Under the pieces are notes generated by a model. The model saw nothing but the letters and a program-made list of their open reading frames with translations, had not been told where the DNA came from and did no database searches. The position numbers and the translations under genes were made by a program. 39,163 nt of DNA from Gammaproteobacteria bacterium (lineage in GTDB: Bacteria > Pseudomonadota > Gammaproteobacteria > BMS3Bbin11), in the NCBI GenBank assembly GCA_013150915.1, contig JAADJE010000062.1, positions 1 to 39,163 on the forward strand. The letters are read 5' to 3'. Shown one piece after another: positions 1-39,163 of the stretch. How positions within the stretch are numbered: position 1 is the stretch's first letter; each line of letters begins with the position of its first letter.

Positions 1-1
1 C

Positions 2-265
2 GGCATTCTGCCTGCCGACCTGGATCTGGATCGACTCCACTGGCTCCGTAGTCGCGTGGTGGACAACGAGTTGCTGGCACCCCCTTCGGACGCAGAAGGT
101 GTTCCGTCGAGTGCCACGCGGTGTGGTCAAAGCAGGGACAGACGTCCGAACCTCTACGGTCCACTCATTGATTCACAGCTGGAGGCCTATGATTTTTACT
201 ACTTCCACCGGACGTTGGCGCATGAATCAGAGGTGACGGAACAAGAACCGTCTGAGCTTAAATGA
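2..265 (+). CDS. C-terminal fragment of an unrecognised protein (5' end off the window)
   Basis: An open frame runs from the left edge without a stop and ends at a TGA, giving 87 visible C-terminal residues. A Met exists at position 56, but the frame is open upstream of it, so this is most likely the tail of a larger protein. The fragment is rich in charged and aromatic residues (a YDFYYFHR stretch near the end) and shows no domain I can name. It lies 19 bases before the carrier protein gene on the same strand and shares the GC-rich base use of the next four genes, so it is probably part of the same operon. It could be the tail of another radical SAM enzyme, but nothing visible proves that. 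Confidence 0.55.
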   Translation, partial: GILPADLDLDRLHWLRSRVVDNELLAPPSDAEGVPSSATRCGQSRDRRPNLYGPLIDSQLEAYDFYYFHRTLAHESEVTEQEPSELK

Positions 266-284
266 TACTCAAGAGAAAAGTGTT

Positions 285-563
285 ATGAAACTACCAATCA
301 AACAAATCGAAGAACGACTCAAGAAGGTCCTTCTGGAATGCACGACCCAACCGATCAAGGCCGAAGATATCCATTCAGACATCGCCTTGCTGGAGCAAGG
401 GCTCGCACTCGACTCGGTCGCACTGCTGGAGTTCATTGTTGGGGCTGAAGAAGAGTTCAACATCCTCCTCGACGACAGCGCCCTGACAGTCGAACACTTC
501 CAGACTTTCAACACGATCGCCCGCTACATCCAAACACAGGTCGCAGAACAGAGGGCATCCTAG
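285..563 (+). CDS. Acyl carrier protein
   Basis: A small acidic 92-residue protein with the acyl carrier fold pattern. The phosphopantetheine site is the Asp-Ser pair D43-S44, in the context GLALDSVALLEF. The usual DSL is DSV here, which occurs in dedicated secondary-metabolism carriers. The helix after the serine ends in an EEEF motif typical of the family. The length fits a stand-alone carrier. It starts 19 bases after the preceding ORF, with a purine-rich AAGAGAAAAG upstream, and ends 4 bases before the AMP ligase. The inferred role is to carry the acyl or aryl group activated by that ligase while the radical SAM enzymes act on it. The substrate cannot be read from the sequence. Confidence 0.88.
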   Translation: MKLPIKQIEERLKKVLLECTTQPIKAEDIHSDIALLEQGLALDSVALLEFIVGAEEEFNILLDDSALTVEHFQTFNTIARYIQTQVAEQRAS

Positions 564-567
564 AGGC

Positions 568-2070
568 ATGCTCACTAACTTGCTTGTGAGCCAGGCCGCA
601 GAGCGTCCGGGACAACCGGCCCTCATTACCACCACCCAGACCCTGACCTGGTACGAACTGAAAGAGCAGACAGACCGTGTGGCCATCGGTCTTGCTACAT
701 GCGAAATCAAGGGAGGGGATCCGGTGGCACTGTTGCTCCCGAACTGTCCCTCTTTTGTCATCGGTTTCCTGGCTCTGGCGCGCCTCGGAGCCATTGCCAT
801 TCCCCTCAGCACCGAATTGAAAGCAGAAGAAATCCGTTCGGCTCTTCAAGCCTCAGCCTGCCGGACTCTGCTGGCGGATAACCGATTCTCGGATCTCTGC
901 CTAAGCCTGCTGCAGGACGGAACACTACTCCACGCCTTTGTGAGGGATGCGGAAGATCTGGGGCTACCAAGCCTCGCCAGCATGGCTGCCGAGGCAACTA
1001 GGCCCCTGAGAAACCCTGTGCCATCTGAAGATACCAACCTCGTGGAGCAATTCACCTCGGGCACAACGGGCCGGCCGAAGCGGATAATCCGAACCCACGC
1101 TCATCTCATGAAGGAAGCGGCTGCGTTTGCAGCCGCAGTAGGTACGTCCTCAGCGGATCGCATATTGGCTGTTGTTCCTCTGTCCCACGCTCACGGCCTG
1201 GGCAACTGCCTGCTGGCCGCCCTGCATGCCGGTGCAACGCTCGTACTGCAAGAGCGGTTCGATCGACGGGAGACCCTCCGCCTGCTTAGCCAGGAACGCA
1301 TCACGCTGTTTCCGGCCGTTCCGTTTATCATTTCCCTTCTGGCCGACACCCGGACCCGTGAACCGGTCGACCTCTCCGCTCTTCGCCTTTGTTTCACCGC
1401 TGGCTCTGCCCTACGGCACGAGACCTGGATCAAGATGCAAGACCGGCTCGGTATCTCACTTCGCCAGCTCTACGGCAGTACCGAGACCGGTGCACTGGCA
1501 ATCAATCTGGACGAGAATGTTGCAGGTACAATTGAATCGGTAGGCCGCCCGCTGGACGGGGTTAGCATCACCACCCTGGATGAGGCTGGAATATTCCTCC
1601 CTCCCGGTACTGAGGGGGAGGTCGCTGTGCAGAGTCCAGCAGCGGCCGAGTATACGGTCGGGCTACAGGGGAAAAAACGATTACCGGCCCCGGATGGGTG
1701 GATCAGGATGGGAGACCTGGGGAGGCTCGACCCGGAAGGACGTCTGTATCTCACTGGCCGCAAGACATTCGTCATCAACGTGGCTGGCCGTAAGGTGAAT
1801 CCCGATGAGATCGAGTCTGTCCTCATGGAGCATCCCAGCGTCCGAGAAGCGGTCGTAGTCGGGATCCAGGATCCATATGGGGAAGAGGTGGTCAAAGCTG
1901 TGGTCATTCCCAGGGGAGCAGGCACGGTCGAGGAGATTCTCACCCATTGCCGTGAACGATTAGCTGATTACAAGGTGCCCCGCATCGTCGAGTTTCGGTG
2001 CACCCTCCCACGTTGTCCGACAGGCAAGATTCTCCGTAAAAGACTCATGGATCCAGCATGCGTATCTTGA
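568..2070 (+). CDS. Acyl/aryl-AMP ligase (ANL superfamily), probably carrier-protein loading
   Basis: A full-length 500-residue adenylate-forming enzyme. Visible motifs in order are the P-loop TSGTTGRPK (about residues 162-170), YGSTETG (about 302), GDLG (about 382), the hinge region around LTGRK, and the C-terminal PTGK with the catalytic lysine K487. Family members convert a carboxylic acid and ATP to an acyl-adenylate, then pass it to CoA or a carrier protein. A carrier protein gene lies 4 bases upstream, so carrier loading is more likely than CoA ligation here (inference). A chorismate lyase-like gene downstream suggests an aromatic acid such as 4-hydroxybenzoate as one candidate substrate. 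A fatty acid cannot be excluded. The 3' end overlaps the next gene by 13 bases, which suggests translational coupling. Confidence 0.9.
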   Translation: MLTNLLVSQAAERPGQPALITTTQTLTWYELKEQTDRVAIGLATCEIKGGDPVALLLPNCPSFVIGFLALARLGAIAIPLSTELKAEEIRSALQASACRTLLADNRFSDLCLSLLQDGTLLHAFVRDAEDLGLPSLASMAAEATRPLRNPVPSEDTNLVEQFTSGTTGRPKRIIRTHAHLMKEAAAFAAAVGTSSADRILAVVPLSHAHGLGNCLLAALHAGATLVLQERFDRRETLRLLSQERITLFPAVPFIISLLADTRTREPVDLSALRLCFTAGSALRHETWIKMQDRLGISLRQLYGSTETGALAINLDENVAGTIESVGRPLDGVSITTLDEAGIFLPPGTEGEVAVQSPAAAEYTVGLQGKKRLPAPDGWIRMGDLGRLDPEGRLYLTGRKTFVINVAGRKVNPDEIESVLMEHPSVREAVVVGIQDPYGEEVVKAVVIPRGAGTVEEILTHCRERLADYKVPRIVEFRCTLPRCPTGKILRKRLMDPACVS

Positions 2071-3410
2071 TCGTCCAACCCGCTACAAACCCACACGTCT
2101 GGGGGGGTGATACCATCTTTATTATGGAACCCCTGTGGGCAGAGTATCTGGGAGCAGCCCTGAAACAGGAGCACGACGTCCAACTTCTGGATCTACGCTT
2201 GGGAGGTAACCTCGCCGAGACCCAGGCATCGTTTAAGCCAGACCTCATCGCCATGACGGCCTACACGGTCGATGTGAACACCGTGAAACGGCTCTGCCGG
2301 GAGTGCAAAGTCCGGGATCCGAAGGTGCGAACCGTTGTGGGTGGATACCATGCGAACCTAGCCGCTGATGACCTTGTCGCGGAGGAAATTGATCTAGTAA
2401 TTATCGGCGAGGGGGTTTTTACAATGGTCGAGGTCGCACGGGCCTACGAACAGGGTGCCCGCGTCGAAGACATCAATGGCGTGGGCATTCCAACACCTAA
2501 AGGTCTCCGACGAGCACCCCCCCGGCCTTGGCCATCCTTGGATGCCTTCCCTTTTCCAGATCGGTCGCTCACTGCAGGCACGCGCAAGCATTACTTCGAT
2601 AAATGGATGAAACCGATTGCCTCGATTCGTGGGTCCTACGGCTGCCCCTACCGATGTGAATTCTGCATCTTGTGGCCTCCGACAGGCGGAAAATACCTGT
2701 TCCGCTCCCCCGTGTCATTCGTAGACGAACTTGCCACGATTGAAGAATCGAACGTCTTTTTTACGGATGACGAGGCCTTGATCCAGCCCGCCCGAATGGC
2801 CGAGATCGCTCACCTTATCGAAGAACGTGGGATCCAGAAACAGTACTACTTCATGGCCCGCTCCGACTCAATTCGTAAGCACCGTAAAGTCTTCGAGAAG
2901 TGGGCCTCCATCGGGCTCAAACGGGTTCTGATCGGGTTGGAGTCCCGCCGATCCGAGGATCTTGATAACTACAATAAACAGGCAACGGTTCAAGATAATG
3001 ATGAGGCTATCGCCATCTGCGAGGCGAACGGTGTGGAAATCCAGGCCATGTTTGTGCTACACCCGGAGTACGAACTGGAGGACTTCGCAGTCCTCCAGAA
3101 GTACGTGGATGATCGTAGGTTGGATACCCCCGTCTACTGCATCCTTACCCCCTACCCTGGCACCAAAAGCTATGCGCACTACAAGGATCGTATCATCGTA
3201 GACAATTACGATTACTGGGACCTGCTCCACGCGGTGATACCTACGCAGATGCCCCTCAGAAAATACTACGCAGAATATGCCAAGCTCTGGGGGACCATTC
3301 CCGCTCTCCAGCGGGGGATCCTGGCCCATCGCGATGAGTTGCCTGCAGACGATACACTGGCGAATGTTCGCAAGATGCGTCGAGGATTCCGACAGACCAC
3401 ACCGGAATAA
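2058..3410 (+). CDS. B12-binding radical SAM enzyme, HpnR-like
   Basis: A 450-residue protein with an N-terminal cobalamin-binding Rossmann-type domain (about 1-150) and a radical SAM domain with the cluster motif C196-x3-C200-x2-C203 (CPYRCEFC). The Cys motif is followed by GGKYLFRSP, FFTDDEA and a late TPYPGTKSYAHYKDR segment. From memory this layout resembles HpnR, the hopanoid C-3 methylase, and related class B methylases. The N-terminal domain has DLRLGG where a His-on cobalamin domain would have DxHxxG, so no lower-axial histidine is evident. That is common in B12 radical SAM enzymes. The likely reaction is methylation or another radical change at an unactivated carbon of a carrier-bound or lipid substrate. 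It overlaps the ligase gene and sits 6 bases before a second radical SAM gene. Confidence 0.88.
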   Translation: MRILIVQPATNPHVWGGDTIFIMEPLWAEYLGAALKQEHDVQLLDLRLGGNLAETQASFKPDLIAMTAYTVDVNTVKRLCRECKVRDPKVRTVVGGYHANLAADDLVAEEIDLVIIGEGVFTMVEVARAYEQGARVEDINGVGIPTPKGLRRAPPRPWPSLDAFPFPDRSLTAGTRKHYFDKWMKPIASIRGSYGCPYRCEFCILWPPTGGKYLFRSPVSFVDELATIEESNVFFTDDEALIQPARMAEIAHLIEERGIQKQYYFMARSDSIRKHRKVFEKWASIGLKRVLIGLESRRSEDLDNYNKQATVQDNDEAIAICEANGVEIQAMFVLHPEYELEDFAVLQKYVDDRRLDTPVYCILTPYPGTKSYAHYKDRIIVDNYDYWDLLHAVIPTQMPLRKYYAEYAKLWGTIPALQRGILAHRDELPADDTLANVRKMRRGFRQTTPE

Positions 3411-3416
3411 CACACC

Positions 3417-4832
3417 ATGAAACTCCTACTCATCGCCCTAAACCGCGAGATGCACCCCTATCCAGTCCAGCCGATTGGGCTCGCCTACATAGCGGAGACC
3501 ACTCGCCGTGCCGGCCACGAGGTCGTTTTCCTTGATATGAACCTATGCAGCGATCCCCTCGAGTTCCTCGAACAGACGGTGGCGGACTTCGCACCGGACG
3601 TGATCGGATTTTGCCTCCGAAATATCGATAACTGCGCCTTCCCGAACTTGGAGTTCTATTTACCTTGGGCGAAAGAAGTCGTCACCCGCTGTCGTAACAT
3701 TTCCCCTGCCAAGTTGGTGATCGGAGGCTCTGGATTCGCGGTGATGCCCAAGGAGATTCTGGCATATCTGGATCTCGGAGTGGGTGTACTGGGAGAGGGA
3801 GAGAGGAGCTTTCTCGCACTCCTGGAGACTTGGCGCGGGAACGGAGCCAGTCCTCTTGACAGGATTGCAGGATTAGCCCTCCGGGAGGGAGCTATCTATC
3901 GGGAGACCCCACCCGAATGGCTTGCCTTTGGGAAGCAGGATTTCTTTCCGGCCAGAGATCTGCTGGACCTATCGTCTTATCTTCGCGGCGGAAGCCTCAC
4001 GGCCGTTCAAACGAAACGCGGCTGCCCATTTCGGTGTACCTATTGCACTTATCCCATGATTGAAGGAAGAACCCTACGAATGCGATCAAGTGCACACGTG
4101 GCACAAGAGCTGGAACATCTGCAACAAGCCTACGGGGTGGAAGAAATCTTTTTTACGGACAACGTCTTCAACAACCCCGTGAGGCATGCGCTGGAGATTT
4201 GCCAGGAGATCGTGCGAAGAGGAATCAAAATATCTTGGACCGGCTTCTTCAATCCGGCACTGATGACCGAAGAACTGGCCGACTGGGCCGTCCGATCGGG
4301 TTGTGTGGGCATTGAGTTTGGCACGGAAGGAGGGACCACTACGAGCCTCAGAGCTCTCCGCAAAGGATTCGGCATAAAGACACTCATCCGCTCGCATCAC
4401 ATCGCCCAGTCGGCGGGCCTAAACGTTTGCCACTATCTGATAGTGGGGTGCCCTGGAGAGACGTTGAGCACGGTTCGTGAGGGACTCGATCTCATTGCCT
4501 CTCTTCAGCCCACAGCGGTTATTGTCTCCACGGGCATACGGATATACCCCAGAACCGGAATCGCAAAAGTTGCGAAGTCCGAAGGATACGACACAAAGAA
4601 TTTGCTGATCCCCCAATTCTACTTTCCCCCCGCGATGCGGGAGGATCCCGGAGGGATGATCACAGCCATCTCGAAAGAATATCCCCGGTTTCGATTTGAA
4701 GGTTTCCACTCCCGTCCAACGCTAAAGCTACTGGAAGCACTGCGTAGGCGGGGACACCGGGGGCCAACCTGGCAGCTCCAGAGCCTTTTGGGAGAATTGA
4801 AGGATCCGACCCAGGGCCAGACCAAAAAATGA
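3417..4832 (+). CDS. Second B12-binding radical SAM enzyme
   Basis: A 471-residue protein of the same two-domain architecture: an N-terminal cobalamin-binding domain (opening MKLLLIALNRE, with GGSGFAV near residue 105) and a radical SAM domain with C203-x3-C207-x2-C210 (CPFRCTYC). An FFTDN motif and the EFGTEGG and GCPGET segments match B12 radical SAM enzymes in general. It is clearly diverged from its upstream neighbour, so this is a pair of different activities and not a recent duplication. It starts 6 bases after the preceding stop and ends the GC-rich operon. The role is presumably a second radical step on the same carrier-bound intermediate. The exact reaction (methylation, ring formation, C-C coupling) cannot be read from the sequence. 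Confidence 0.88.
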   Translation: MKLLLIALNREMHPYPVQPIGLAYIAETTRRAGHEVVFLDMNLCSDPLEFLEQTVADFAPDVIGFCLRNIDNCAFPNLEFYLPWAKEVVTRCRNISPAKLVIGGSGFAVMPKEILAYLDLGVGVLGEGERSFLALLETWRGNGASPLDRIAGLALREGAIYRETPPEWLAFGKQDFFPARDLLDLSSYLRGGSLTAVQTKRGCPFRCTYCTYPMIEGRTLRMRSSAHVAQELEHLQQAYGVEEIFFTDNVFNNPVRHALEICQEIVRRGIKISWTGFFNPALMTEELADWAVRSGCVGIEFGTEGGTTTSLRALRKGFGIKTLIRSHHIAQSAGLNVCHYLIVGCPGETLSTVREGLDLIASLQPTAVIVSTGIRIYPRTGIAKVAKSEGYDTKNLLIPQFYFPPAMREDPGGMITAISKEYPRFRFEGFHSRPTLKLLEALRRRGHRGPTWQLQSLLGELKDPTQGQTKK

Positions 4833-4949
4833 AAATACCTTCGTGCGGTGAATTACAGGCGGATGCTCATGCGGCACCCCTTGTTCACAGATGTGATGGG
4901 GAGAACTTACTATTGCGATCGGTAACAAGATCCTCCAGGAGAACCAATT

Positions 4950-5561
4950 GTGGATTCTAACAATCTTCCAGGCAGTAAGTTATTACGTGTTGATCTTCAA
5001 CGATCCTTAAAGCCTAGTCACATCAACCTAAAGGATCTAACGCCCTTTCAACGTATTCTTCTAACTACAGATGGTATGGTAACCGAGATACTGGAAGCAT
5101 ACCTATGGGAACGGATAAAGGTTACAAAGATATTTCAGGAGTACTTTATCTTGGAGCGTAGTATCCCCTCCTTGGAGATAGAAAGAGGGTGTAGGATCCT
5201 GAAGAGAAAGATATGCTTATCTGGAAGATTAAGTCATAAAAACCATATTTATGCTGAGACAATAATAGTCCCTGACCGACTTGATGAAAGGATAAGAGAT
5301 GGTTTGTTGAACAGCAATAAGCCTATTGGCCAATTAATCCTGGAAGATCGTTTAGAAACCTTTCGTGAGATTCTAGATTATGGTAAAGAACAGGCACGTG
5401 ATCTGGCAGTTTATTTCAATATCAAAAAGAATGATTTTCTAATCTTCAGAACCTATAGGGTTTTCACAAATTCATTGCCTATTATGTTGATCACTGAAAA
5501 GTTTCAAAAAAATGTTGGTCGGGATAGAAATACGACCCACACAAGTTTAGGGAACCTCTGA
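4950..5561 (+). CDS. Chorismate lyase-like protein (Rv2949c/DUF98 type)
   Basis: A 203-residue protein matching the chorismate pyruvate-lyase-like family that includes mycobacterial Rv2949c. Recognisable segments are LTPFQRILLTTDG with VTEILEAYL (about 30-53), VPDRLDERIRDGLL (about 108), KPIGQL and ETFREILDYG, and RTYRVF...PIMLITEKF near the end. The family makes 4-hydroxybenzoate and pyruvate from chorismate. The start is GTG at 4950, chosen for the clear AGGAG at 4937-4941. The gene is much richer in A+T than the five genes before it and is separated from them by 117 bases with its own ribosome site, so it may have arrived separately. Its last residues and stop codon lie inside the left inverted repeat of a MITE, so the native C-terminus may be replaced. 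Confidence 0.8.
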   Translation: MDSNNLPGSKLLRVDLQRSLKPSHINLKDLTPFQRILLTTDGMVTEILEAYLWERIKVTKIFQEYFILERSIPSLEIERGCRILKRKICLSGRLSHKNHIYAETIIVPDRLDERIRDGLLNSNKPIGQLILEDRLETFREILDYGKEQARDLAVYFNIKKNDFLIFRTYRVFTNSLPIMLITEKFQKNVGRDRNTTHTSLGNL

Positions 5562-5710
5562 TTAATTCTGGACGAAGTAGATTGCGATCTCAAAATATTC
5601 AGGTTTGAGGCGAAAATCGCACGTAATAGCTGGCTATTGCGAAGGTTTTCAACGAAAAAACTGGATATTTTAGGCGTAAGATATGAGTTCATGAATTGAT
5701 CAGAGGTTCC
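5551..5710. mobile_element. MITE copy 1 with TTAG target duplication
   Basis: A 160-bp non-coding element. The left end GGAACCTCTGATTAATTC (5551-5568) is matched by its reverse complement at 5693-5710 with one mismatch in 18. TTAG flanks it on both sides (5547-5550 and 5711-5714), a 4-bp duplication of the YTAR type known for the IS5 subgroup of the IS5 family. A central inverted repeat, CGTAATAGC-TG-GCTATTGCG, occupies 5622-5641. No transposase is present, so it would be moved in trans (inference). The upstream gene ends within the left repeat. This copy looks the youngest of three in the window, because it has the best terminal match and an intact duplication. Confidence 0.85.
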
Positions 5711-5761
5711 TTAGGTTAACAGGCCATTTTTATTCAATATTTATAGGACAGTGACTATTAA

Positions 5762-6781
5762 CTAAACCACCCCATTTACTCCGTAATACGCCCTGTACCA
5801 ACTGACAAATTCATGTAAGCCTTCTTCTATGGTAATTCCAGGCCTGTAGCCAAAATCTCTTTCCAGTGCTGATGTATCAGCGGTTGTCGCTTTCACGTCA
5901 CCATCCTGCATTGGCAGCATTTCCATGTCGGCCTTGATGCCGAGCGCATCTTCCAGTACTTCTATATAACGCAGCAGTTTTACCGGTCGGCCATTACCAA
6001 TATTGTATAGCCTGTAAGGTGCATCACTGGAAGACGGTAGCGGGTCATCATGACTGAATACGGGATCCGGCTCTGCGGGTTTATCGATCACCCTGATGAC
6101 ACCTTCAACGACATCATCAATATAGGTGAAGTCACGGATCATCTTGCCGTGATTGAACACCGGTATTTTCTTACCCTTCAGCATGGCTTTGGTGAATTTG
6201 AAAAAGGCCATGTCTGGTCTGCCCCAGGGGCCATAAACAGTGAAAAATCGCAGGCCCGTACAGGGGAGGCGATAAAGGTGGGCATAGGTATGTGCCATCA
6301 GTTCATTGGCTTTTTTGCTGGCGGCATAAAGAGAGATCTGATGATCCACCGCATCATTCTCGGAATAGGGCAGTTTGGTATTGGAACCATAAACCGAACT
6401 TGATGAAGCAAAAACCAGGTGCCCTACTTTTGAATGCCGACAACCTTCAAGTATATTTCCAAAACCAACCAGATTCGCATCGACATAAGCCGCCGGGTTC
6501 TCCAGCGAGTACCGCACGCCTGCCTGAGCGGCAAGATTCATTACGGCATCAAACTGAAGTGTCTCGAATAGCTTTTTAATGGCGGCTCTATCTGAGATAT
6601 CTGTTTTTTCAAAACTAAAACCGGGTTTTATGGCCAGGTCTGCCAGGCGGGCTTCCTTGAGGGAAACTTCATAATAATTGTTAAGCGTATCAATCACGTG
6701 CACTGTATCACCGCGATCCAGCAGTCTGTGCGCCAATGCGGCTCCGATGAACCCGGCACCTCCTGTAATCAAAACCTTCAT
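5762..6781 (-). CDS. NAD-dependent epimerase, UDP-glucuronate 4-epimerase-like
   Basis: A 339-residue extended SDR sugar-nucleotide epimerase. It opens with MKVLITGGAGFIG, which carries the GxxGxxG NAD site. The active-site region SSSSVYG is followed by the YAASK tyrosine/lysine pair and FFTVYGPWGRPDMA, typical of UDP-glucuronate to UDP-galacturonate epimerases (LpsL/Cap1J type). An upstream in-frame Met exists at 6826. I chose the ATG at 6781 because AGGTGA lies just before it and the NAD motif then starts at the family-typical position. The product would feed capsule or LPS sugars. No glycosyltransferase is adjacent, and the gene stands alone at the edge of the foreign block. Confidence 0.88.
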   Translation of the reverse strand: MKVLITGGAGFIGAALAHRLLDRGDTVHVIDTLNNYYEVSLKEARLADLAIKPGFSFEKTDISDRAAIKKLFETLQFDAVMNLAAQAGVRYSLENPAAYVDANLVGFGNILEGCRHSKVGHLVFASSSSVYGSNTKLPYSENDAVDHQISLYAASKKANELMAHTYAHLYRLPCTGLRFFTVYGPWGRPDMAFFKFTKAMLKGKKIPVFNHGKMIRDFTYIDDVVEGVIRVIDKPAEPDPVFSHDDPLPSSSDAPYRLYNIGNGRPVKLLRYIEVLEDALGIKADMEMLPMQDGDVKATTADTSALERDFGYRPGITIEEGLHEFVSWYRAYYGVNGVV

Positions 6782-6992
6782 TTCTGTCACCTGTCTAAAA
6801 TCAGCGAGGGATTCTAACATTTTCACCCTTAGGATACCCTTTATTTACCCACGGGTATGCTCAGCAAGTATCTACGAAGCAATAGAATTCATAACCACAA
6901 CTTCAAATAAGCAATAGGGGTATAGCTTTTTATTACTGGACAGGTAAATAACTGTTATGCAGAATGTGGTGTCAACAATGATGGAGGAGATC

Positions 6993-7340
6993 ATGACAGT
7001 TACTATTTACCACAACCCCCGTTGTAGTAAGTCTCGCGAGACAATGGAGTTTCTGGAGGAGAATGGCATTGAAGCCGAGGTCATTGAATATATGGACACC
7101 CCGCCAGATGAAGCTACCCTTAAAGAATTGCTTAAAATGCTGGGGATGACTCCACATGAACTAATGAGAAAACATGAAACCGTGTTCAAGGATGCGGGAC
7201 TGGATGACCCAACATTTACCGATGATGAACTGATAGAAGCCATGGTTCAGTGCCCCAGCCTGATTGAGCGACCCATCGTTATAAATAATGGAAAGGCAAT
7301 CCTGGCACGTCCGCCTGAAGCAGTACTGGACATACTCTAG
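6993..7340 (+). CDS. arsC: ArsC-like arsenate reductase (glutaredoxin-coupled)
   Basis: A 115-residue ArsC-family protein. The N-terminal MTVTIYHNPRCSKSRET holds the catalytic cysteine in the NPRCSKS context, and RPIVINNGKAILARPPE near the C-terminus holds the family's conserved arginine region. Family members reduce arsenate to arsenite with glutathione and glutaredoxin. Many chromosomal copies such as this one sit outside ars operons, so the true substrate is not certain. The start at 6993 is preferred over an upstream Met (6957) because GGAGGAG lies directly before it. No arsenite pump or ArsR is next to it. It precedes DUF2069 and hda, an order I recall from other gammaproteobacteria. Confidence 0.88.
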   Translation: MTVTIYHNPRCSKSRETMEFLEENGIEAEVIEYMDTPPDEATLKELLKMLGMTPHELMRKHETVFKDAGLDDPTFTDDELIEAMVQCPSLIERPIVINNGKAILARPPEAVLDIL

Positions 7341-7446
7341 ACCTATGGACAGAATAGAAATATTCCCTTCTCGGAAGATGAGAAAACGCTGTGCCACGCC
7401 CTCGTAAGGGAGTTTCCAACATTATCTGCCTGAGCACTCAAAAAGT

Positions 7447-7809
7447 ATGAATACACGACTGGCCTACACACTTAGTCTTGTATTCTGGATAACTCTAATT
7501 GCCCTCACCGTGTTATGGGAGGGCTGGCTGGCACCCTCTCCACCAATCGGTTTCTGGTTGACGATCAAGTCCTTACCGCTGTTGATTCCACTGTTCGGCA
7601 TGCTACACATGAAACGAAGATCATTCTCCGTCGCTGGCTTGATCGCTATGCTTTACTTTATTGAAGGTGTCATGATCAGCTGGGGAGAATTCGCTACAGG
7701 CACACAGAATTCAGCATTACTGGCCTTGAGTCTGGCCGAAGTTCTCCTGGTTCTTGCATTTGTTGTTTGTATTTATATCTATCTTAGAAACACGAAGTAC
7801 CTCAGTTGA
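7447..7809 (+). CDS. DUF2069 membrane protein
   Basis: A 120-residue hydrophobic protein with about four predicted membrane helices: LSLVFWITLIALTVLW, SLPLLIPLFGMLH, GLIAMLYFIEGVMI and LALSLAEVLLVLAFVVCIYIYL. It matches the DUF2069 family of small inner-membrane proteins, usually found near arsC, wrbA and hda in gammaproteobacteria. The function is unknown. It lies 106 bases after the arsC-like gene on the same strand and ends just before a repeat-bounded intergenic segment that separates it from the convergent hda. Confidence 0.78.
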   Translation: MNTRLAYTLSLVFWITLIALTVLWEGWLAPSPPIGFWLTIKSLPLLIPLFGMLHMKRRSFSVAGLIAMLYFIEGVMISWGEFATGTQNSALLALSLAEVLLVLAFVVCIYIYLRNTKYLS

Positions 7810-7815
7810 AAGCTT

Positions 7816-7971
7816 AAAGGGAAAAGGAAGGTCAAAATCGTCATTCCGGCGTATGCCGGAATCCAGAGGTTCTTTGATTTGGAATAACATGGATGCCCGC
7901 ATGATGTACTGTCGGCAAGTGGTTAATATAGAAGAAAGAGGGAGGGCGATTTTGACTTTCCTTTTCCCTTT
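7816..7971. repeat. REP hairpin enclosed by long inverted purine/pyrimidine arms
   Basis: Two arms, 7816-7840 and 7947-7971, are reverse complements with one mismatch in 25 (the purine-rich arm contains GGGAAAAGGAAGG). They enclose 106 bases that start with a perfect REP-like hairpin, ATTCCGGC-GTAT-GCCGGAAT (7843-7862), of the widespread GTCATTCCGG...CCGGAATCCAG type. The segment fills the gap between the convergent DUF2069 gene and hda. No gene is visible in it. Confidence 0.8.
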
Positions 7972-7990
7972 CCGCTTTCCCCTGCTTTTC

Positions 7991-8701
7991 TCATTCCAAT
8001 TCCAACGACCGCAAAAACGGTATCGTTATCAGTCTTTTTTGCTCCAGACTGGCCCTGTCAATTTGATCAAGTATTTTGAATAAATTCCCCGTCTCTCGCC
8101 GGTAACGATTTAGAATAAAATTTACTGCTTCCTCAGAGATCTCGAAGCCTCGATCAGAGGCACGTTCCCGCAGAGCGATAATTTTCTGCTCATCACCCAG
8201 CGGCAGCACCTGATAGGTTAAACCTGACATCAAGCGTGTCACCAGGTCACGTAGGCCTAGATTCAGACTGGTTGGTGGCTTGATTGCCGAAATAATGACC
8301 GACTTGTTCCTGTCACGGGCCATATTACAGAGCTGAAATAGTCTTTCTTCCCATCCGGGCAGGCCCGCAATGCTATCAAGGCCATCGATTAGATAAATAC
8401 CGTAATCATCGAGATCGGCGAGAATAGCCTCACCGCCTTTTTCAGCAGACAGCTCAGATAGCGAAACAAACCAGGGGCTTTGCCTGTTCTCTTCGGCAAG
8501 TCGATAACAGGAATTCAGTAAATGGCTCTTGCCGGCGCCGGATTCACCCCAGATAAACAGAGGTGCCAGCGTCTCCTTTCCTTCGGCCACCTTGATCAGA
8601 TGCTGCGCCAGCTCTGTGTTATGGCCAGTGACGAAGCTGTCAAAACAGACCGTATCCCGCAATGATAAATCCAGTGCCATCTGACCCTGTTTTATTACCA
8701 T
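7991..8701 (-). CDS. hda: Hda, DnaA regulatory inactivator
   Basis: A 236-residue DnaA-like AAA+ protein without the DnaA DNA-binding domain. An N-terminal clamp-binding motif (QMALDL, residues 7-12) fits Hda, which binds the beta clamp and stimulates ATP hydrolysis by DnaA after initiation. Walker A is GESGAGKSHLL (about residue 52), Walker B is IYLIDGLD (about 100), and the C-terminal LDQIDRASLEQKRLITIPF matches E. coli Hda (LDQLDRASITAQRKLTIPF). Its ATG overlaps the stop of the upstream phosphatidyltransferase gene by one base (TGATG), indicating translational coupling. Confidence 0.92.
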   Translation of the reverse strand: MVIKQGQMALDLSLRDTVCFDSFVTGHNTELAQHLIKVAEGKETLAPLFIWGESGAGKSHLLNSCYRLAEENRQSPWFVSLSELSAEKGGEAILADLDDYGIYLIDGLDSIAGLPGWEERLFQLCNMARDRNKSVIISAIKPPTSLNLGLRDLVTRLMSGLTYQVLPLGDEQKIIALRERASDRGFEISEEAVNFILNRYRRETGNLFKILDQIDRASLEQKRLITIPFLRSLELE

Positions 8702-9294
8702 CAGTCTGGGCCACCTGATTTTGGGGCATTTTGCTCTTCCTTCACACCGTCCACCATTTCAATTTCCTCTTTCACGACCCAGACCCAGACATAATGCACA
8801 CCACTGAGTATCGTTGTTATAAAAGTGGCATAAATTAGATAATTGGTAAAAGAGTTGTAATTCAAATCGAAGGTTTTTTGCGCCAGGATAGCCACCACAA
8901 GAGAAATCTGCATAAACGTATTGAGCTTGCTCAGATAGCTTGGCGCCATCTTGACCTTGCCGTTAAACGCTACATAAATCAGGCTTCCTACCAGAATGAG
9001 CACATCACGGAAGACCACAGTCAGAAATAACCAGAATGGAAGATCTCCCAGTATCATCAGCATCAGATAACTGCTGAATATCAGGGCTTTGTCAGCCAGT
9101 GGATCCAGTATAGCGCCAAGCTCACTGGCCATATCAAAGCGTTTGGCAATGAAGCCGTCCAGCCCATCGGAAATCCCGGCAATTAAAAAGATCAGAAAGG
9201 CCCATCCGTAAAACTGATCATGCAGTAACAGAATCAATACCGGCACTGTCGCGATCCGGAACATGGTAATAATATTAGGGATGGTAGTAATCAT
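8701..9294 (-). CDS. CDP-alcohol phosphatidyltransferase (PgsA-like)
   Basis: A 197-residue multi-helix membrane protein with the complete CDP-alcohol phosphotransferase signature: [10 protein letters not shown] followed by [10 protein letters not shown] (about residues 43-70), which supplies the metal-binding aspartates. The N-terminal [16 protein letters not shown] is typical of PgsA-type phosphatidylglycerophosphate synthases, and the length fits. The hydrophilic C-terminal tail ([14 protein letters not shown]) is slightly longer than usual. It would join CDP-diacylglycerol to an alcohol, probably glycerol 3-phosphate, at the inner membrane. The alcohol is not proven. It is divergent from purM and translationally coupled to hda. 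Confidence 0.85.
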
Positions 9295-9312
9295 CAGTGC
9301 CCCACTAAAAAC

Positions 9313-9343
9313 CTGACAGCATCCCCGCAGGTCATGATAAAAT
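9313..9343 (+). promoter_or_regulatory. Candidate sigma70 promoter for purM
   Basis: CTGACA (9313-9318) lies 17 bases before GATAAA (9336-9341), or 19 bases before TAAAAT (9338-9343). Transcription would start near 9350, just before the CAGGAG at 9364-9369. If it is real, the upstream in-frame ATG at 9334 falls inside the promoter, which supports the GTG at 9376 as the purM start. Confidence 0.4.
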
Positions 9344-9375
9344 ATGGCGCTAACCTTATCATACAGGAGCCACCC

Positions 9376-10422
9376 GTGGCTGATTCTAATTCCGGTCTGA
9401 CTTACCGTGATGCGGGCGTCGATATTGCTGCCGGTGAATCACTGGTAGATATGATCAAACCCATTGCCAAAGCAACCCGTCGTCCAGGCTGCATAGATGA
9501 TCTAGGTGGTTTCGGCGCCATGTTCCAGATCCCGCCAACATACAAAGAACCGATTCTGGTGTCCGGTACTGACGGGGTGGGCACCAAGCTGAGACTCGCC
9601 ATTGATACTGGCATTCATGACACCATTGGTATCGATCTGGTCGCCATGTGCGCCAATGATATTCTGGTACAGGGGGCAGAACCTCTTTTCTTTCTCGATT
9701 ATTTTGCCACGGGAAAACTTAATGTCGAAACCGCGGCCACCATCGTGCGCGGGATAGGAGACGGCTGCAAACTGGCCGGTGCCGCATTAATCGGTGGCGA
9801 GACAGCAGAAATGCCGGGTATCTATGCTGACGGAGATTATGATCTGGCAGGATTCTGCGTGGGTGTGGTCGAAAAATCATCCATTATTGATGCCTCAGAA
9901 GTTGCTGCAGGAGATGTCCTTATTGCCCTGCAGTCATCGGGCCCTCACTCCAATGGCTACTCCCTGATTCGCAAGGTCATTGAGGTCTCAAATACGAATC
10001 TCGGGCAAACATTCGGCGACACAACACTTGCCCGGGCCCTGCTCAAACCCACACGCATATACGTCAAATCACTATTAAATTTACTGCAGGAGATCCCCCT
10101 GCATGCACTGGCCCACATCACAGGTGGTGGTCTGTCAGGCAATATATGCCGGGTTATTCCAGACGGGCTTTGTGCGGTGGTCGAACGATCATCCTGGGAT
10201 TTTCCTGCGATCTTTGAATGGCTGCAGGATAACGGTGATATCGCCGAGGACGAGATGCTAAAAACCTTTAACTGTGGGATGGGTATGGTGCTGGTAGCAG
10301 CAGATAAAGATGCGCCCGCTGTCATTCATAATCTTGAGGCTCAGGGAGAAAAGGTCTGGCTGGCCGGACGAATCGAAAAGACTGCTACGGGTACGGGAAG
10401 TGAGCGTGTCCAAATCATCTGA
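9376..10422 (+). CDS. purM: Phosphoribosylformylglycinamidine cyclo-ligase
   Basis: A 348-residue PurM that makes aminoimidazole ribonucleotide from FGAM in purine synthesis. Segments that match E. coli PurM include [10 protein letters not shown] at the start, [13 protein letters not shown] (ATP site), [30 protein letters not shown] and TFNCGMGM. The frame is open to an ATG at 9334. I chose the GTG at 9376 because it has CAGGAG seven bases upstream and gives an N-terminus and length like E. coli PurM. It is followed by purN with an overlapping start, as in many gammaproteobacteria. Confidence 0.94.
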
Positions 10423-11074
10423 CGGGAACCCCTTTCCAATAGTTGTCCTGATCTCCGGCAGTGGCAGTAACCTACAGTCCATTATTGACCACCGTCAGGA
10501 TTTTGAACCTGGCATTGATATCTGCACAGTTATTTCTAATAATCCCGAAGCCTACGGACTGCAGCGGGCCAGTCAGGTAGGGGTAAGCACAACGGTCATC
10601 AATCATCAGGATTACCCGAACCGCAGCCGCTATGACGCAGCCTTAATGACCGAAATTGATCGCCATCAGCCGATGCTGGTTGTTCTGGCCGGTTTTATGC
10701 GCATACTTACAACCGAGTTTGTTAATCATTATTCAGGCAGGCTGATCAACATCCACCCCTCCCTCTTACCCCTTTATCCTGGGCTGAATACACATCAACG
10801 AGCCATCGAAAGTGCTGATAAGGAAGCGGGTGCGACAGTCCACTTTGTCAAACCGGAGGTCGATGCTGGCCCGATCATCATTCAGGCTCGTGTGCCTGTT
10901 TATGGCACTGACAGTCGTCAGCAACTCGCCGCCCGAGTACTTGCACAAGAACATCTTATCTACCCCAGGGCCATACAATGGTTCGCCCAGGGCAGGCTAT
11001 CCGTGAGAAACGATAAGGTATTGCTCGATGGGAATGAATCATCAAAGCAAATGGTCATAAGTGATGAAATATAA
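10406..11074 (+). CDS. purN: Phosphoribosylglycinamide formyltransferase
   Basis: A PurN of about 222 residues transferring formyl from 10-formyl-THF to [19 protein letters not shown] opens the fold. [10 protein letters not shown] and [16 protein letters not shown] carry the family's catalytic Asn and His, and a [14 protein letters not shown] segment follows. The start is uncertain: the frame opens at 10310 deep inside purM, and both GTG codons (10400 and 10406) lie in the purM 3' end behind a GGGAAG stretch. I use 10406. The gene therefore overlaps purM by about 17 bases and is probably coupled to it. The 3' end overlaps the DUF3108 gene by 11 bases. Confidence 0.92.
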
Positions 11075-11768
11075 ATTATCGGCACTCTTATTAATTTCAG
11101 GCCTTTTTCTAAACACAGCCCTGTTCGCCGCCACACTCCCCAAAAATCTCAATCTTGTCTACAGGGTAAAAATTGCGGGTATGAACATAGGGACACTCGA
11201 TCGCGAGTTAAACGCTGAAGGCAAAGGTATTTATACCGTTACTTCAGAAACCAATGCCACAGGAATTGCAGCGATTCTTCTCAATGACACCTACCGTGAA
11301 AAAAGTAGATTTAAAGTAAAAGATGGGATGATTTTCCCGCTCAACTACCGTCGGTCGCCTGATAAGAAACCAGAAAAAGCGCGTATCGCCAGTTTTGACT
11401 GGAACAAAAAAAAGGTCACACTGAATAATGACAGAGTCTACGATATCAGCCCCGGGGTACAGGATCCGGCCTCTTTCCTTTTTTTCTGGATGTTAACCCC
11501 CCCCAGGAAAGGACAGACCGGCAAAATCTCGTTAGTGGATGGTAAACGTATGTCTCAGTATGAATTCAAGATCATAGACCACGAAAAAGTTGAATCGCTA
11601 TGGGGAAAAATCAATACTCTTCGTATCGAACGACAGAAAGAAGGCAGCCCGGATAAAATCCTGCGCATGTGGTTAGCCACCGACTACAGCTACATTCCAG
11701 TCGTTATTGAAAACATCCGACCGAAGTATACGATGACGTTCAGGTTGGAGAAGGCTAACGGCTTGTAA
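11064..11768 (+). CDS. DUF3108 exported protein
   Basis: A 234-residue protein with an N-terminal signal peptide (hydrophobic ALLLISGLFLNTALFAA, likely cleaved after the Ala pair) and a beta-rich body. It begins LVYRVKIAGMNIG and ends in a YIPVVIENIRPKYTMTFRL segment typical of the DUF3108 family, which often follows purN in gammaproteobacteria. The function is unknown. The location is periplasm or outer membrane, inferred from the signal peptide and beta pattern. The start is the ATG at 11064, three bases after an in-frame GTG, inside the purN 3' end. Confidence 0.8.
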   Translation: MKYKLSALLLISGLFLNTALFAATLPKNLNLVYRVKIAGMNIGTLDRELNAEGKGIYTVTSETNATGIAAILLNDTYREKSRFKVKDGMIFPLNYRRSPDKKPEKARIASFDWNKKKVTLNNDRVYDISPGVQDPASFLFFWMLTPPRKGQTGKISLVDGKRMSQYEFKIIDHEKVESLWGKINTLRIERQKEGSPDKILRMWLATDYSYIPVVIENIRPKYTMTFRLEKANGL

Positions 11769-11797
11769 GATATGAAGTGTTTATGGCCTTCAATTTA

Positions 11798-11822
11798 TTT
11801 GTAGGAGCGACGCTCCTACAAA
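11798..11822. repeat. REP-like perfect hairpin
   Basis: A perfect inverted repeat of 12 + 12 bases around a single A (arm TTTGTAGGAGCG) between the convergent DUF3108 gene and clpA. No T-run follows on either strand, so it looks like a REP-type repeat and not a rho-independent terminator. A decayed relative lies at 35903-35921. Confidence 0.7.
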
Positions 11823-11882
11823 AATAGTATTGACTCACATACAAAATTTTAATTTAATCAGATATCCCTTCAACAGCAGGTT

Positions 11883-14138
11883 TTATTTTTCATCATCACC
11901 CCCAACATCAAGCACCAACTTACCCTCTTTCTCGCTGACAAACACCTCCCCACCTTTGTCTAACTTACCAAACAAAATCTCATCAGCCAGGGGTTTCTTG
12001 ATGTTCTCCTGAATCACGCGTGCCATGGGTCTGGCACCCATCGTCGGGTCATAGCCATGTTCTGCCAGCCAGCTACGCGCACTTTCATCAACGGAAATGA
12101 CTACATTCTTATCGGCCAGCTGTACCTCCAGTTCAAGAATGAATTTATCAACGACATGAACAATGGTTGATTTGTCCAGATCATTGAAATTGATGATGGC
12201 GTCCAGGCGGTTACGAAACTCCGGTGTGAACAACTTCTTAATCGCTTCGCCGCCATCACTGCGGTGATCCTGCTCGGTAAAACCGATTGAACTGCGGGCC
12301 ATCTGCTCTGCTCCAGCATTGGTGGTCATGACCAGGATGACATTACGGAAGTCCGTTTTCCTGCCATTGTTATCGGTCAACGCCCCGTGGTCCATCACCT
12401 GTAACAGGAGATTGAAGACATCAGGATGTGCTTTTTCAATTTCATCCAGAAGAAGTACTGCGTGCGGTGTCTTGTTGATAGCCTCGGTCAGCAAGCCGCC
12501 TTGATCAAAACCCACATAACCGGGGGGTGCACCGATCAATCTCGATACCGTATGGCTTTCCATATATTCAGACATATCATAGCGTATCAGATCAATACCC
12601 ATGGTATGAGCCAGTTGCCGTGTGACCTCTGTTTTGCCAACACCGGTCGGTCCGGAAAATAAAAAATTGGCAACCGGGCGGTCCTCCGGCCCGAGGCCAG
12701 AACGTGACATCTTGATGGCAGAAGACAATGCTGCGATAGCTTCATCCTGACCGAATATTACCCGTTTCAGATCGGTTTCCAGGTTAGTGAGTGTACGTTT
12801 GTCTGAACTGGTCACCTGCTTCGGCGGGATACGGGCCATTTTGGCAATGACTGATTCTATCTCACGAATACCCACTTTTTCCTTACGTTTGTTCGCTGGC
12901 AGCAAATGTACCCGTGCGCCAGCTTCGTCCAGCACATCAATCGCTTTATCCGGCAGGTGGCGATCATTGATATAACGATTCGACAGTTTTACTGCACCGG
13001 TAATCGCTTTATTGGTATAGCGAACCTGGTGGTGTTGTTCAAGAACAGATTTCAGGCCGTTAAGAATGGCAATTGTTTCATCGATAGACGGCTCAGGTAC
13101 ATCTATCTTTTGGAAACGACGTGACAGTGCGCGGTCTTTCTCAAATATTCCGCGGTATTCCTGGTAGGTCGTGGAACCAATAAAGCGAATCGCTCCAGTG
13201 CCAAGCACAGGCTTGAGTAAATTTGAGGCATCCATGGCGCCGCCCGATGCAGCACCTGCCCCAATGATGGTATGAATCTCGTCGATAAGCAGAATAGCCT
13301 TACCGTTCATATTTTTTAATTCACCGAGAACGGCCTTAAACCTTTTTTCAAAATCACCACGGTATTTTGTCCCGGCCAACAAGGCACCAAGATCAAGTGC
13401 GTACATGGTATTGTCCGCAATCACGGCCGGAACCTTTCCATCAACAATACGGCTCGCCAGACCTTCGGCCATGGCTGTTTTACCCACACCGGCTTCACCG
13501 ACATAGAGCGGGTTATTTTTTCTGCGACGACAGAGTATCTGCAGGGTGCGTTCAATTTCAAATTCACGTCCGATCATCGGATCAATCCGCCCTTCCCTGG
13601 CTTCATTATTGAGATTAACTGTGTATAATTCCAGTGCAGTCTTTCTGGTCTCAGTTTCACCCCCTTCGATATCTTCACCGGACTGAGGTTCAAATTCTAT
13701 ATCATCGTTACGGCTAACGCCGTGGGAGATATAGCTCGTCACATCAAGTCGGGTAATATCCTGCTGACTAAGGAAATATACAGCGAAAGACTCCGCTTCT
13801 GAAAAAAGTGCCGCCAGAACATTGGCGCCATTAACCTCTTTTCTGCCTGAGCCCTGAACGTGCAGGATTGCACGTTGAATAACACGTTGAAAACCCAGTG
13901 TCGGCTGGGTTTCATTCTCACTTTCTGATGGCAGTATCGGCAAAGTCGTATCGATAAACTCTTCCAGTAAGGCACGCAACTTGTTCCGGTCACATCCAAC
14001 TGCCTGCAACACTGAAGACGCACTCTGATCCTCCAGCAGAGCCAGCAGTAAATGCTCTACCGTGATGTACTCGAAATGGCGAGCGCGCGCCATTTTAACA
14101 GCATCATTCAATGTTTGTTCAAGTTCTACAGATAGCAT
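11883..14138 (-). CDS. clpA: ClpA, ATP-dependent Clp protease ATP-binding subunit
   Basis: A 751-residue class I Clp ATPase, close to E. coli ClpA in length. An N-terminal double Clp repeat ([14 protein letters not shown]..., about 1-145) is followed by two AAA+ modules with Walker [11 protein letters not shown] (about 213) and [10 protein letters not shown] (about 494). The sequence [11 protein letters not shown] lies in the second module. It unfolds substrates and feeds them to ClpP in the cytoplasm. clpP is not in this window. It lies 26 bases downstream of clpS, its adaptor, on the same strand. Confidence 0.96.
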
Positions 14139-38502: not shown

Positions 38503-38666
38503 ACGCCGCCCTAATTGATATTAATTTTGTATCCATTTTTACCGCAAATTTACGGAACGGGACACTCTATCATAAAATAGTGAATCGGGTGTGGGGTAGA
38601 GATCATTTGACCTCTGGAGCAAGGTTAGCAACAATCAACGATAATACAGATATAGGGGACAGTATT

Positions 38667-39163
38667 ATGGTGCCACTGCATCAGATGTTTATTGCGACGG
38701 CGAAAAAATATTCCAGCGAAATCGCTATTGTCGATCGCAATCTACGCAAAAATATCACCTATGGCAGGGCACTGATCGGTGCTCTATTACTCGCCAGACG
38801 CTTCCGCATATACCAGGATGGCTATCTCGGGATAATGATCCCTAATTCCAGTGGCAGCATACTGGCTATTATCGCCACCCTGTTTGCCGGCAAAGTCCCC
38901 GTGATGATCAATTATTCCACGGGTGCGGCAGAAAACTCGGAATTTGCCCAACAGAAATGTAGTTTTCATACAATTATCCCCTCACGTGCCCTGCTCGAAA
39001 AACTGGGTTGCCGGCTGGTGCCCGGTATGGTTTTCATTGAGGATCTGATCGGCTCTGTTTCAAAATATGAAAAAATTCTAGCGGCCATAAAATCGAAACT
39101 GCCTGTTTTTCTTCTGCAAAACCTGGTACACAGGGGTGACCTGGAAGAAACAGCAGTAATCTT
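38667..39163 (+). CDS. Aas-like acyl-ACP/acyl-AMP synthetase, N-terminal part (runs off the window)
   Basis: An open frame from ATG 38667 (GGGGAC upstream) to the right edge, 165 codons without a stop. The translation includes LGIMIPNSSGSILAIIATLFAGKVPVMINYSTG and AEFAQQKC-like sequence with IIPSRALLEKL, resembling the synthetase domain of Aas (2-acyl-GPE acyltransferase/acyl-ACP synthetase). The ATP-binding motif lies beyond the edge. It is divergent from the SH3 gene across 164 bases. The substrate is probably a fatty acid. Confidence 0.75.
   Translation, partial: MVPLHQMFIATAKKYSSEIAIVDRNLRKNITYGRALIGALLLARRFRIYQDGYLGIMIPNSSGSILAIIATLFAGKVPVMINYSTGAAENSEFAQQKCSFHTIIPSRALLEKLGCRLVPGMVFIEDLIGSVSKYEKILAAIKSKLPVFLLQNLVHRGDLEETAVI

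Follow-up and report, generated by a model that had tools for sequence, protein, structure and literature searches.

We propose, with somewhat better than even confidence, that positions 1 to 4,832 of the DNA analysed here (the window, 39,163 nucleotides of a gammaproteobacterial genome) form the 3′ portion of a biosynthetic operon, gained by horizontal transfer, whose enzymes would load an acid onto a carrier protein and remodel it in two radical steps. The operon would serve specialised metabolism or lipid synthesis, and its product is probably an unusual small molecule or lipid. Tight spacing on one strand, a uniform foreign third-position GC content (GC3) and an intact Fe-S cluster motif in both radical SAM proteins (RS1 and RS2) form the basis for this reading.

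Gene content and missing left part

The features of the left end of the window are:

2–265, + strand: C-terminal end of a gene (87 aa, open ORF), cut by the contig end and without a family match in Pfam, NCBIfam or PDB
285–563, + strand: ACP, stand-alone acyl/peptidyl carrier protein, 92 aa (PF00550)
568–2070, + strand: LIG, ANL-superfamily AMP-forming ligase, 500 aa (PF00501 and PF13193)
2058–3410, + strand: RS1, B12-binding radical SAM protein of the HpnR/ThnL/BchE superfamily, orphan branch (Pfam, NCBIfam, tree and motif)
3417–4832, + strand: RS2, B12-binding radical SAM protein, nearest family TIGR04072 (rSAM_ladder_B12) (NCBIfam and motif)
4950–5561, + strand: CPL, Rv2949c-like chorismate pyruvate-lyase, AT-rich, probably a separate gene (PF01947, 2nwi alignment and GC3)
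5547–5714, no strand: dispersed inverted-repeat element of ~166 bp bordering the species-specific region, with many copies in the same genome and in sister genomes

An earlier note, made from the sequence without database searches, had described this six-gene layout; the same ORFs were recovered, and Pfam and NCBIfam confirmed their domains. Spacing and domains also bore out its closely packed operon, in which a carrier protein and a ligase accompany two B12 radical SAM enzymes. Successive genes from the fragment to RS2 are separated by 19, 4, −13 (an overlap) and 6 bases, making translational coupling and a single transcript likely for the first five genes. The gap between RS2 and CPL is 117 bases. 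The description of five GC-rich genes followed by the lyase-like gene held for GC content (53–60% in positions 1–4850, compared to mostly 43–52% in the rest of the window), with the corrections that CPL is AT-rich (37.9% GC) and that the leading gene is no more than a C-terminal fragment, which had no match in any other search tried.

The window is one whole contig of a 2.65-Mb, 122-contig genome (97.7% complete), and the operon therefore begins beyond the assembly. The first 15–31 bases of the window were absent from the other contig parts read (~1.8 Mb of the genome). GC-rich contig ends considered as the missing left part turned out to hold a nif cluster, MoxR/Bat-type genes or a decayed aminotransferase region. 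Two of these ends deserve description. Positions 5957–10000 of contig C2 are GC-rich, carry SDR, GNAT-like, truncated DegT and class III aminotransferase genes, and are nearest to the operon in tetranucleotide make-up; no link between the two was found. Positions 1–11000 of contig C10 hold a GC-rich (57–62%) nitrogenase-type cluster in a genome of lower GC; gene calls by eye were nifHDK, nifEN-type and nifV-like, and the cluster was possibly acquired.

Composition and synteny

The operon is most likely foreign to its gammaproteobacterial host and acquired by transfer, judging from its composition and distribution. GC3 is 0.62–0.67 in ACP, LIG, RS1 and RS2 and 0.58 in the fragment, compared to 0.48–0.53 in six host genes and 0.37 (0.373) in CPL. 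Codon log-odds were +0.10 to +0.28 bits per codon for the operon and −0.10 to −0.18 for host genes, values trained on these same genes; the independent points are CPL (−0.20, on the host side or beyond) and the fragment (+0.02, between the groups). The tetranucleotide correlation of the operon region with the remaining window is 0.53.

RS1 and CPL were each absent from all six congeners, and DNA synteny with the sister genome restarts only at position 5768, directly past the repeat, so the left part of the window is species-specific and most likely acquired. At the corresponding left side, the sister genome carries a methyltransferase gene and a gene for a NusG-family antiterminator (NusG/RfaH-type), left of a conserved nucleotide-sugar epimerase. 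In the window, the epimerase lies at 5762–6826 on the strand opposite the operon and is part of the conserved host side. The left-flank genes of the sister genome had no close match in the ~1.8 Mb of our genome that was read, and the DNA of positions 1–5560 matched nothing among the plasmids searched.

The repeat element looks like a MITE. Its ends are AGGGAACCTCTGATTAATTC and GAATTGATCAGAGGTTCCTT, and several genomes of the genus carry tens of copies of it. CPL runs into the element with its last codons.

Ligase and carrier protein

The carrier protein scored 23.7 bits against PF00550 (cut-off 20.8) and keeps its attachment serine in GLALDSVALLEF. Its best NCBIfam model is AmcB-like, at 42 bits, under the cut-off of 80. 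The ligase is a predicted ANL adenylating enzyme with both an AMP-binding domain (PF00501, 248.6 bits) and a C-terminal lid domain (PF13193, 63.6 bits).

Fatty acyl-AMP ligases (FAALs) are defined by a FAAL-specific insertion (PMC11837247). LIG is collinear with FadD13 and does not have this insertion, and we rejected its assignment as a FAAL. Its best scores were to acyl-CoA ligase families and benzoate-type models scored lower; aryl-CoA and aryl-AMP ligases are among its relatives. Given the missing insertion and these top-scoring families, LIG may instead form a CoA thioester. Gene adjacency favours the carrier over CoA as acceptor, whereas the sequence itself does not decide. In this adjacency of a ligase gene and a presumed carrier gene, the operon resembles FAAL/ACP loading modules such as JamA/JamB (PMC11837247). 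It differs from them in the missing insertion and in having no PKS or NRPS in view. The earlier note had likewise seen no polyketide synthase or glycosyltransferase, and we found no glycosyltransferase in positions 1–5561.

Two B12-binding radical SAM proteins

RS1 and RS2 are predicted cobalamin-dependent radical SAM enzymes. Each has a B12-binding and a Radical_SAM domain and an intact CxxxCxxC motif, which is CPYRCEFC in RS1 and CPFRCTYC in RS2.

RS1 had been called HpnR-like. It does belong to the superfamily and HpnR (TIGR04367) is its best NCBIfam model; however, its score of 237.5 bits misses the equivalog cut-off of 650 by more than 400 bits, and the protein is ~60 aa shorter than HpnR. 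A 22-sequence tree split RS1 from three HpnR sequences with 95/93 support and put it with a mixed set including ThnL, without resolving its position there. The ThnL group itself had 100/100 support and left RS1 outside. RS1 was thus rejected as a hopanoid C-3 methylase and is, on this phylogenetic evidence, an orphan branch.

The closest characterised relative of RS1 is ThnL of S. cattleya (36% identity), a carbapenem enzyme that forms a C-S bond. The corresponding S. cattleya gene adjoins one for a 681-aa protein that matches TokK at 1278 bits, a match that points to thienamycin and led us to discard the idea of an unknown cluster. We take this locus to be the thienamycin (thn) cluster, and the RS1 relative hence to be ThnL. 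Further genes of the locus encode a third B12 radical SAM protein, a reductase and two proteins that resemble a ligase and an asparagine synthetase. A review assigns thioether formation to ThnL (PMC13331322). Both loci combine a B12 radical SAM enzyme with an adenylating ligase-like protein, and thn has two further B12 radical SAM enzymes. They differ in that RS1 falls outside the ThnL clade and that neither carbapenem genes nor others of thn type are visible in the window, which is truncated on the left. No match to LIG was obtained with the ligase-like protein of thn.

A one-protein search for RS1 orthologues returned no hit, and no homologue at 1e-50 was present in 399 genomes of the phylum. 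The nearest relative found (42% identity) was the only match in the class sample. Its gene (genome G609) adjoins a luciferase-like monooxygenase gene, with no ligase match on its contig. A degenerate-motif scan of GTDB r220 contigs, which can overlook orthologues with an altered motif, recovered only ThnL-type relatives of 35–37% identity.

The match of RS2 to TIGR04072 covers almost the whole model and scores 358.5 bits, 1.5 bits short of the cut-off of 360 (357.1 bits in the phylum-sample search). The next-best model, BzaD, scored 240.7 bits. None of 299 sampled phylum genomes passed the TIGR04072 cut-off, with the highest score coming from the host genome itself. The short name of the model, rSAM_ladder_B12, points toward ladderane-type lipid clusters.

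The chorismate-lyase-like gene

CPL is a predicted Rv2949c-like chorismate pyruvate-lyase. The family match is good (PF01947 at 59.6 bits, cut-off 22) and the protein is collinear with the solved structure 2nwi (E 3.9e-12), in agreement with the Rv2949c-type assignment made earlier. CPL is thus like other Rv2949c-like lyases, but it is set off from the operon by composition and distance. Its composition matches neither operon nor host, and it was probably a separate acquisition. Its closest relative (43% identity, genome G039) is encoded next to a polysaccharide-flippase-like gene.

Proteobacterial UbiA was over its cut-off in five of the seven genus genomes, the host included, and UbiC (Pfam) was detected in none of the seven. 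4-hydroxybenzoate therefore has a housekeeping use in the genus. CPL could even serve ubiquinone synthesis, although congeners do without it.

Proposed pathway and alternatives

In the pathway that we propose, the ligase would adenylate a carboxylic acid and pass it to the adjacent carrier protein, as gene adjacency and intact domains suggest. The chain, still tethered or already released, would next be modified by RS1 and RS2. By analogy with their nearest characterised relatives, the radical chemistry may be C-methylation or the formation of C-C or C-S bonds. We infer this order of steps, and do not favour 4-hydroxybenzoate as the acid. A bolder version, which we offer tentatively and consider rather less likely than not to be right, is that a carrier-tethered acid is rebuilt sequentially by RS1, an orphan branch between HpnR-type methylases and ThnL-type bond formers, and by the ladderane-associated RS2, yielding a new carbon skeleton or ring in an undescribed pathway. 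Three observations run against the operon reading as a whole: the four-gene set turned up in no other genome searched, the nearest RS1 homologue lies beside a monooxygenase gene on a contig without a ligase match, and LIG lacks the FAAL insertion and has its top scores with acyl-CoA ligase families.

Other products can be imagined for the same genes. The operon might be a fragment of a ladderane or polyunsaturated-lipid-type pathway, with RS2 acting on an ACP-bound acyl chain, as would B12 radical SAM enzymes encoded in anammox fatty-acid clusters. The near-full-model match of RS2, far over its next family, and the lack of any score over the cut-off among the sampled phylum genomes speak for this. 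Gene sets of Kuenenia contain ACPs and SAM radical enzymes as well as a phenylacetyl-CoA ligase (PMC4790861), and one Kuenenia SAM radical enzyme with a B12 domain, Kuste2803, has been put forward as a candidate for forming the ladderane rings (PMC2649909). ACP and ligase genes are present here. However, no fatty-acid synthase genes are in view and neither FabF, FabZ nor a desaturase was recognised in the window, the left side of which is cut off. Ladderane gene sets have no stated counterpart of RS1, and TIGR04072 was not named in any paper of the literature searched; we consider this lipid pathway unlikely. The scheme of the earlier note, in which 4-hydroxybenzoate from CPL would be attached to the carrier by the ligase and have its aryl group altered by the radical SAM enzymes, draws on consecutive genes on one strand, the good family match of CPL and the aryl-activating relatives of LIG. 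It fits poorly with the low GC3 and host-leaning codon use of CPL, the 117-base gap before it and the preference of LIG for acyl-CoA over benzoate-type models. The link from CPL to the ligase is weak because of this mismatch in composition and because UbiA, in a genus where no UbiC was found, gives 4-hydroxybenzoate a housekeeping outlet; we therefore regard the scheme as quite improbable. There is also a small chance that the operon is a decoration cassette that supplies an exopolysaccharide or O-antigen with an acyl or methylated group. The epimerase, the NusG/RfaH-type antiterminator to its left in the sister genome, the flippase-like neighbour of the CPL homologue and the joint occurrence of B12 radical SAM and glycosyltransferase genes on several plasmids would all suit such a role. 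Yet positions 1–5561 contain no glycosyltransferase, polymerase or flippase, and the epimerase is on the other strand, in the conserved host side.

A different kind of explanation is that the GC-rich end stems from a foreign genome and that an assembly or binning artefact fused it to this one close to, or at, the repeat or CPL. The GC change at ~4850 is abrupt, a high-copy repeat lies beside the synteny break and no matching contig end appeared in the ~1.8 Mb of genome read. An acquired island would yield the same picture, however, and the repeat is found throughout the genus, so DNA joined through it would most likely come from the same genus. We judge an artefact very unlikely, and retain an acquired operon that activates and remodels an acid as our preferred reading.

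B12 radical SAM enzymes catalyse carbon reactions that rank among the most difficult known, and to our knowledge most of their families have no assigned substrate. In the operon, an orphan ThnL/HpnR-type enzyme and one of the ladderane family come together with a dedicated ligase and carrier, which offers a route to the substrate through loading in vitro. RS2 could serve as a model for uncharacterised ladderane-family enzymes. The value of the locus is limited by the cut-off cluster and the single assembly.

Comparable loci in other genomes

The set of ACP, LIG, RS1 and RS2 was not found in any other genome searched, and their putative joint function consequently rests on adjacency in one assembly. 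This agrees with the earlier statement that no named pathway is known with this exact set. Loci combining a ligase, a carrier and multiple B12 radical SAM proteins do recur elsewhere. A stretch of ~17 kb on a Burkholderia stagnalis plasmid contains three tandem B12 radical SAM genes and genes for an insulinase-family protein, an AMP-binding enzyme, two carrier-like proteins and a ketosynthase. Positions 2702–14088 of a mobilizable Citrobacter portucalensis plasmid, from a gull, encode a GH3-type ligase, five radical SAM proteins, an N-acetyltransferase and a desaturase. The proteins of both plasmids are distant from those of the operon (~21–29% identity), and plasmid relatives of LIG reach at most 36% identity among the matches listed. 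Because several B12 radical SAM proteins are seen together with activating enzymes on plasmids, these loci support, by analogy, the kind of pathway proposed, not the identity of the pathway here.

It should also be noted that the right end of the window (38580–39163) carries the start of another AMP-binding-type protein (weak PF00501 match), cut by the contig end. Genes of thn type were seen in two further organisms. Catellatospora tritici has ThnL-like, ligase-like and reductase-like genes (57–68%) in one stretch found on two scaffolds, with no ThnK match within the 8 kb examined. Outside the actinomycetes, positions 1–5459 of a locus in the Acidobacteria MAG HKST-UBA06 hold carbapenem-type genes, with homologues of ThnL (65%), ThnK/TokK (64%), the thn ligase-like protein (68%) and an asparagine-synthetase-like protein (43%), together with a crotonase.
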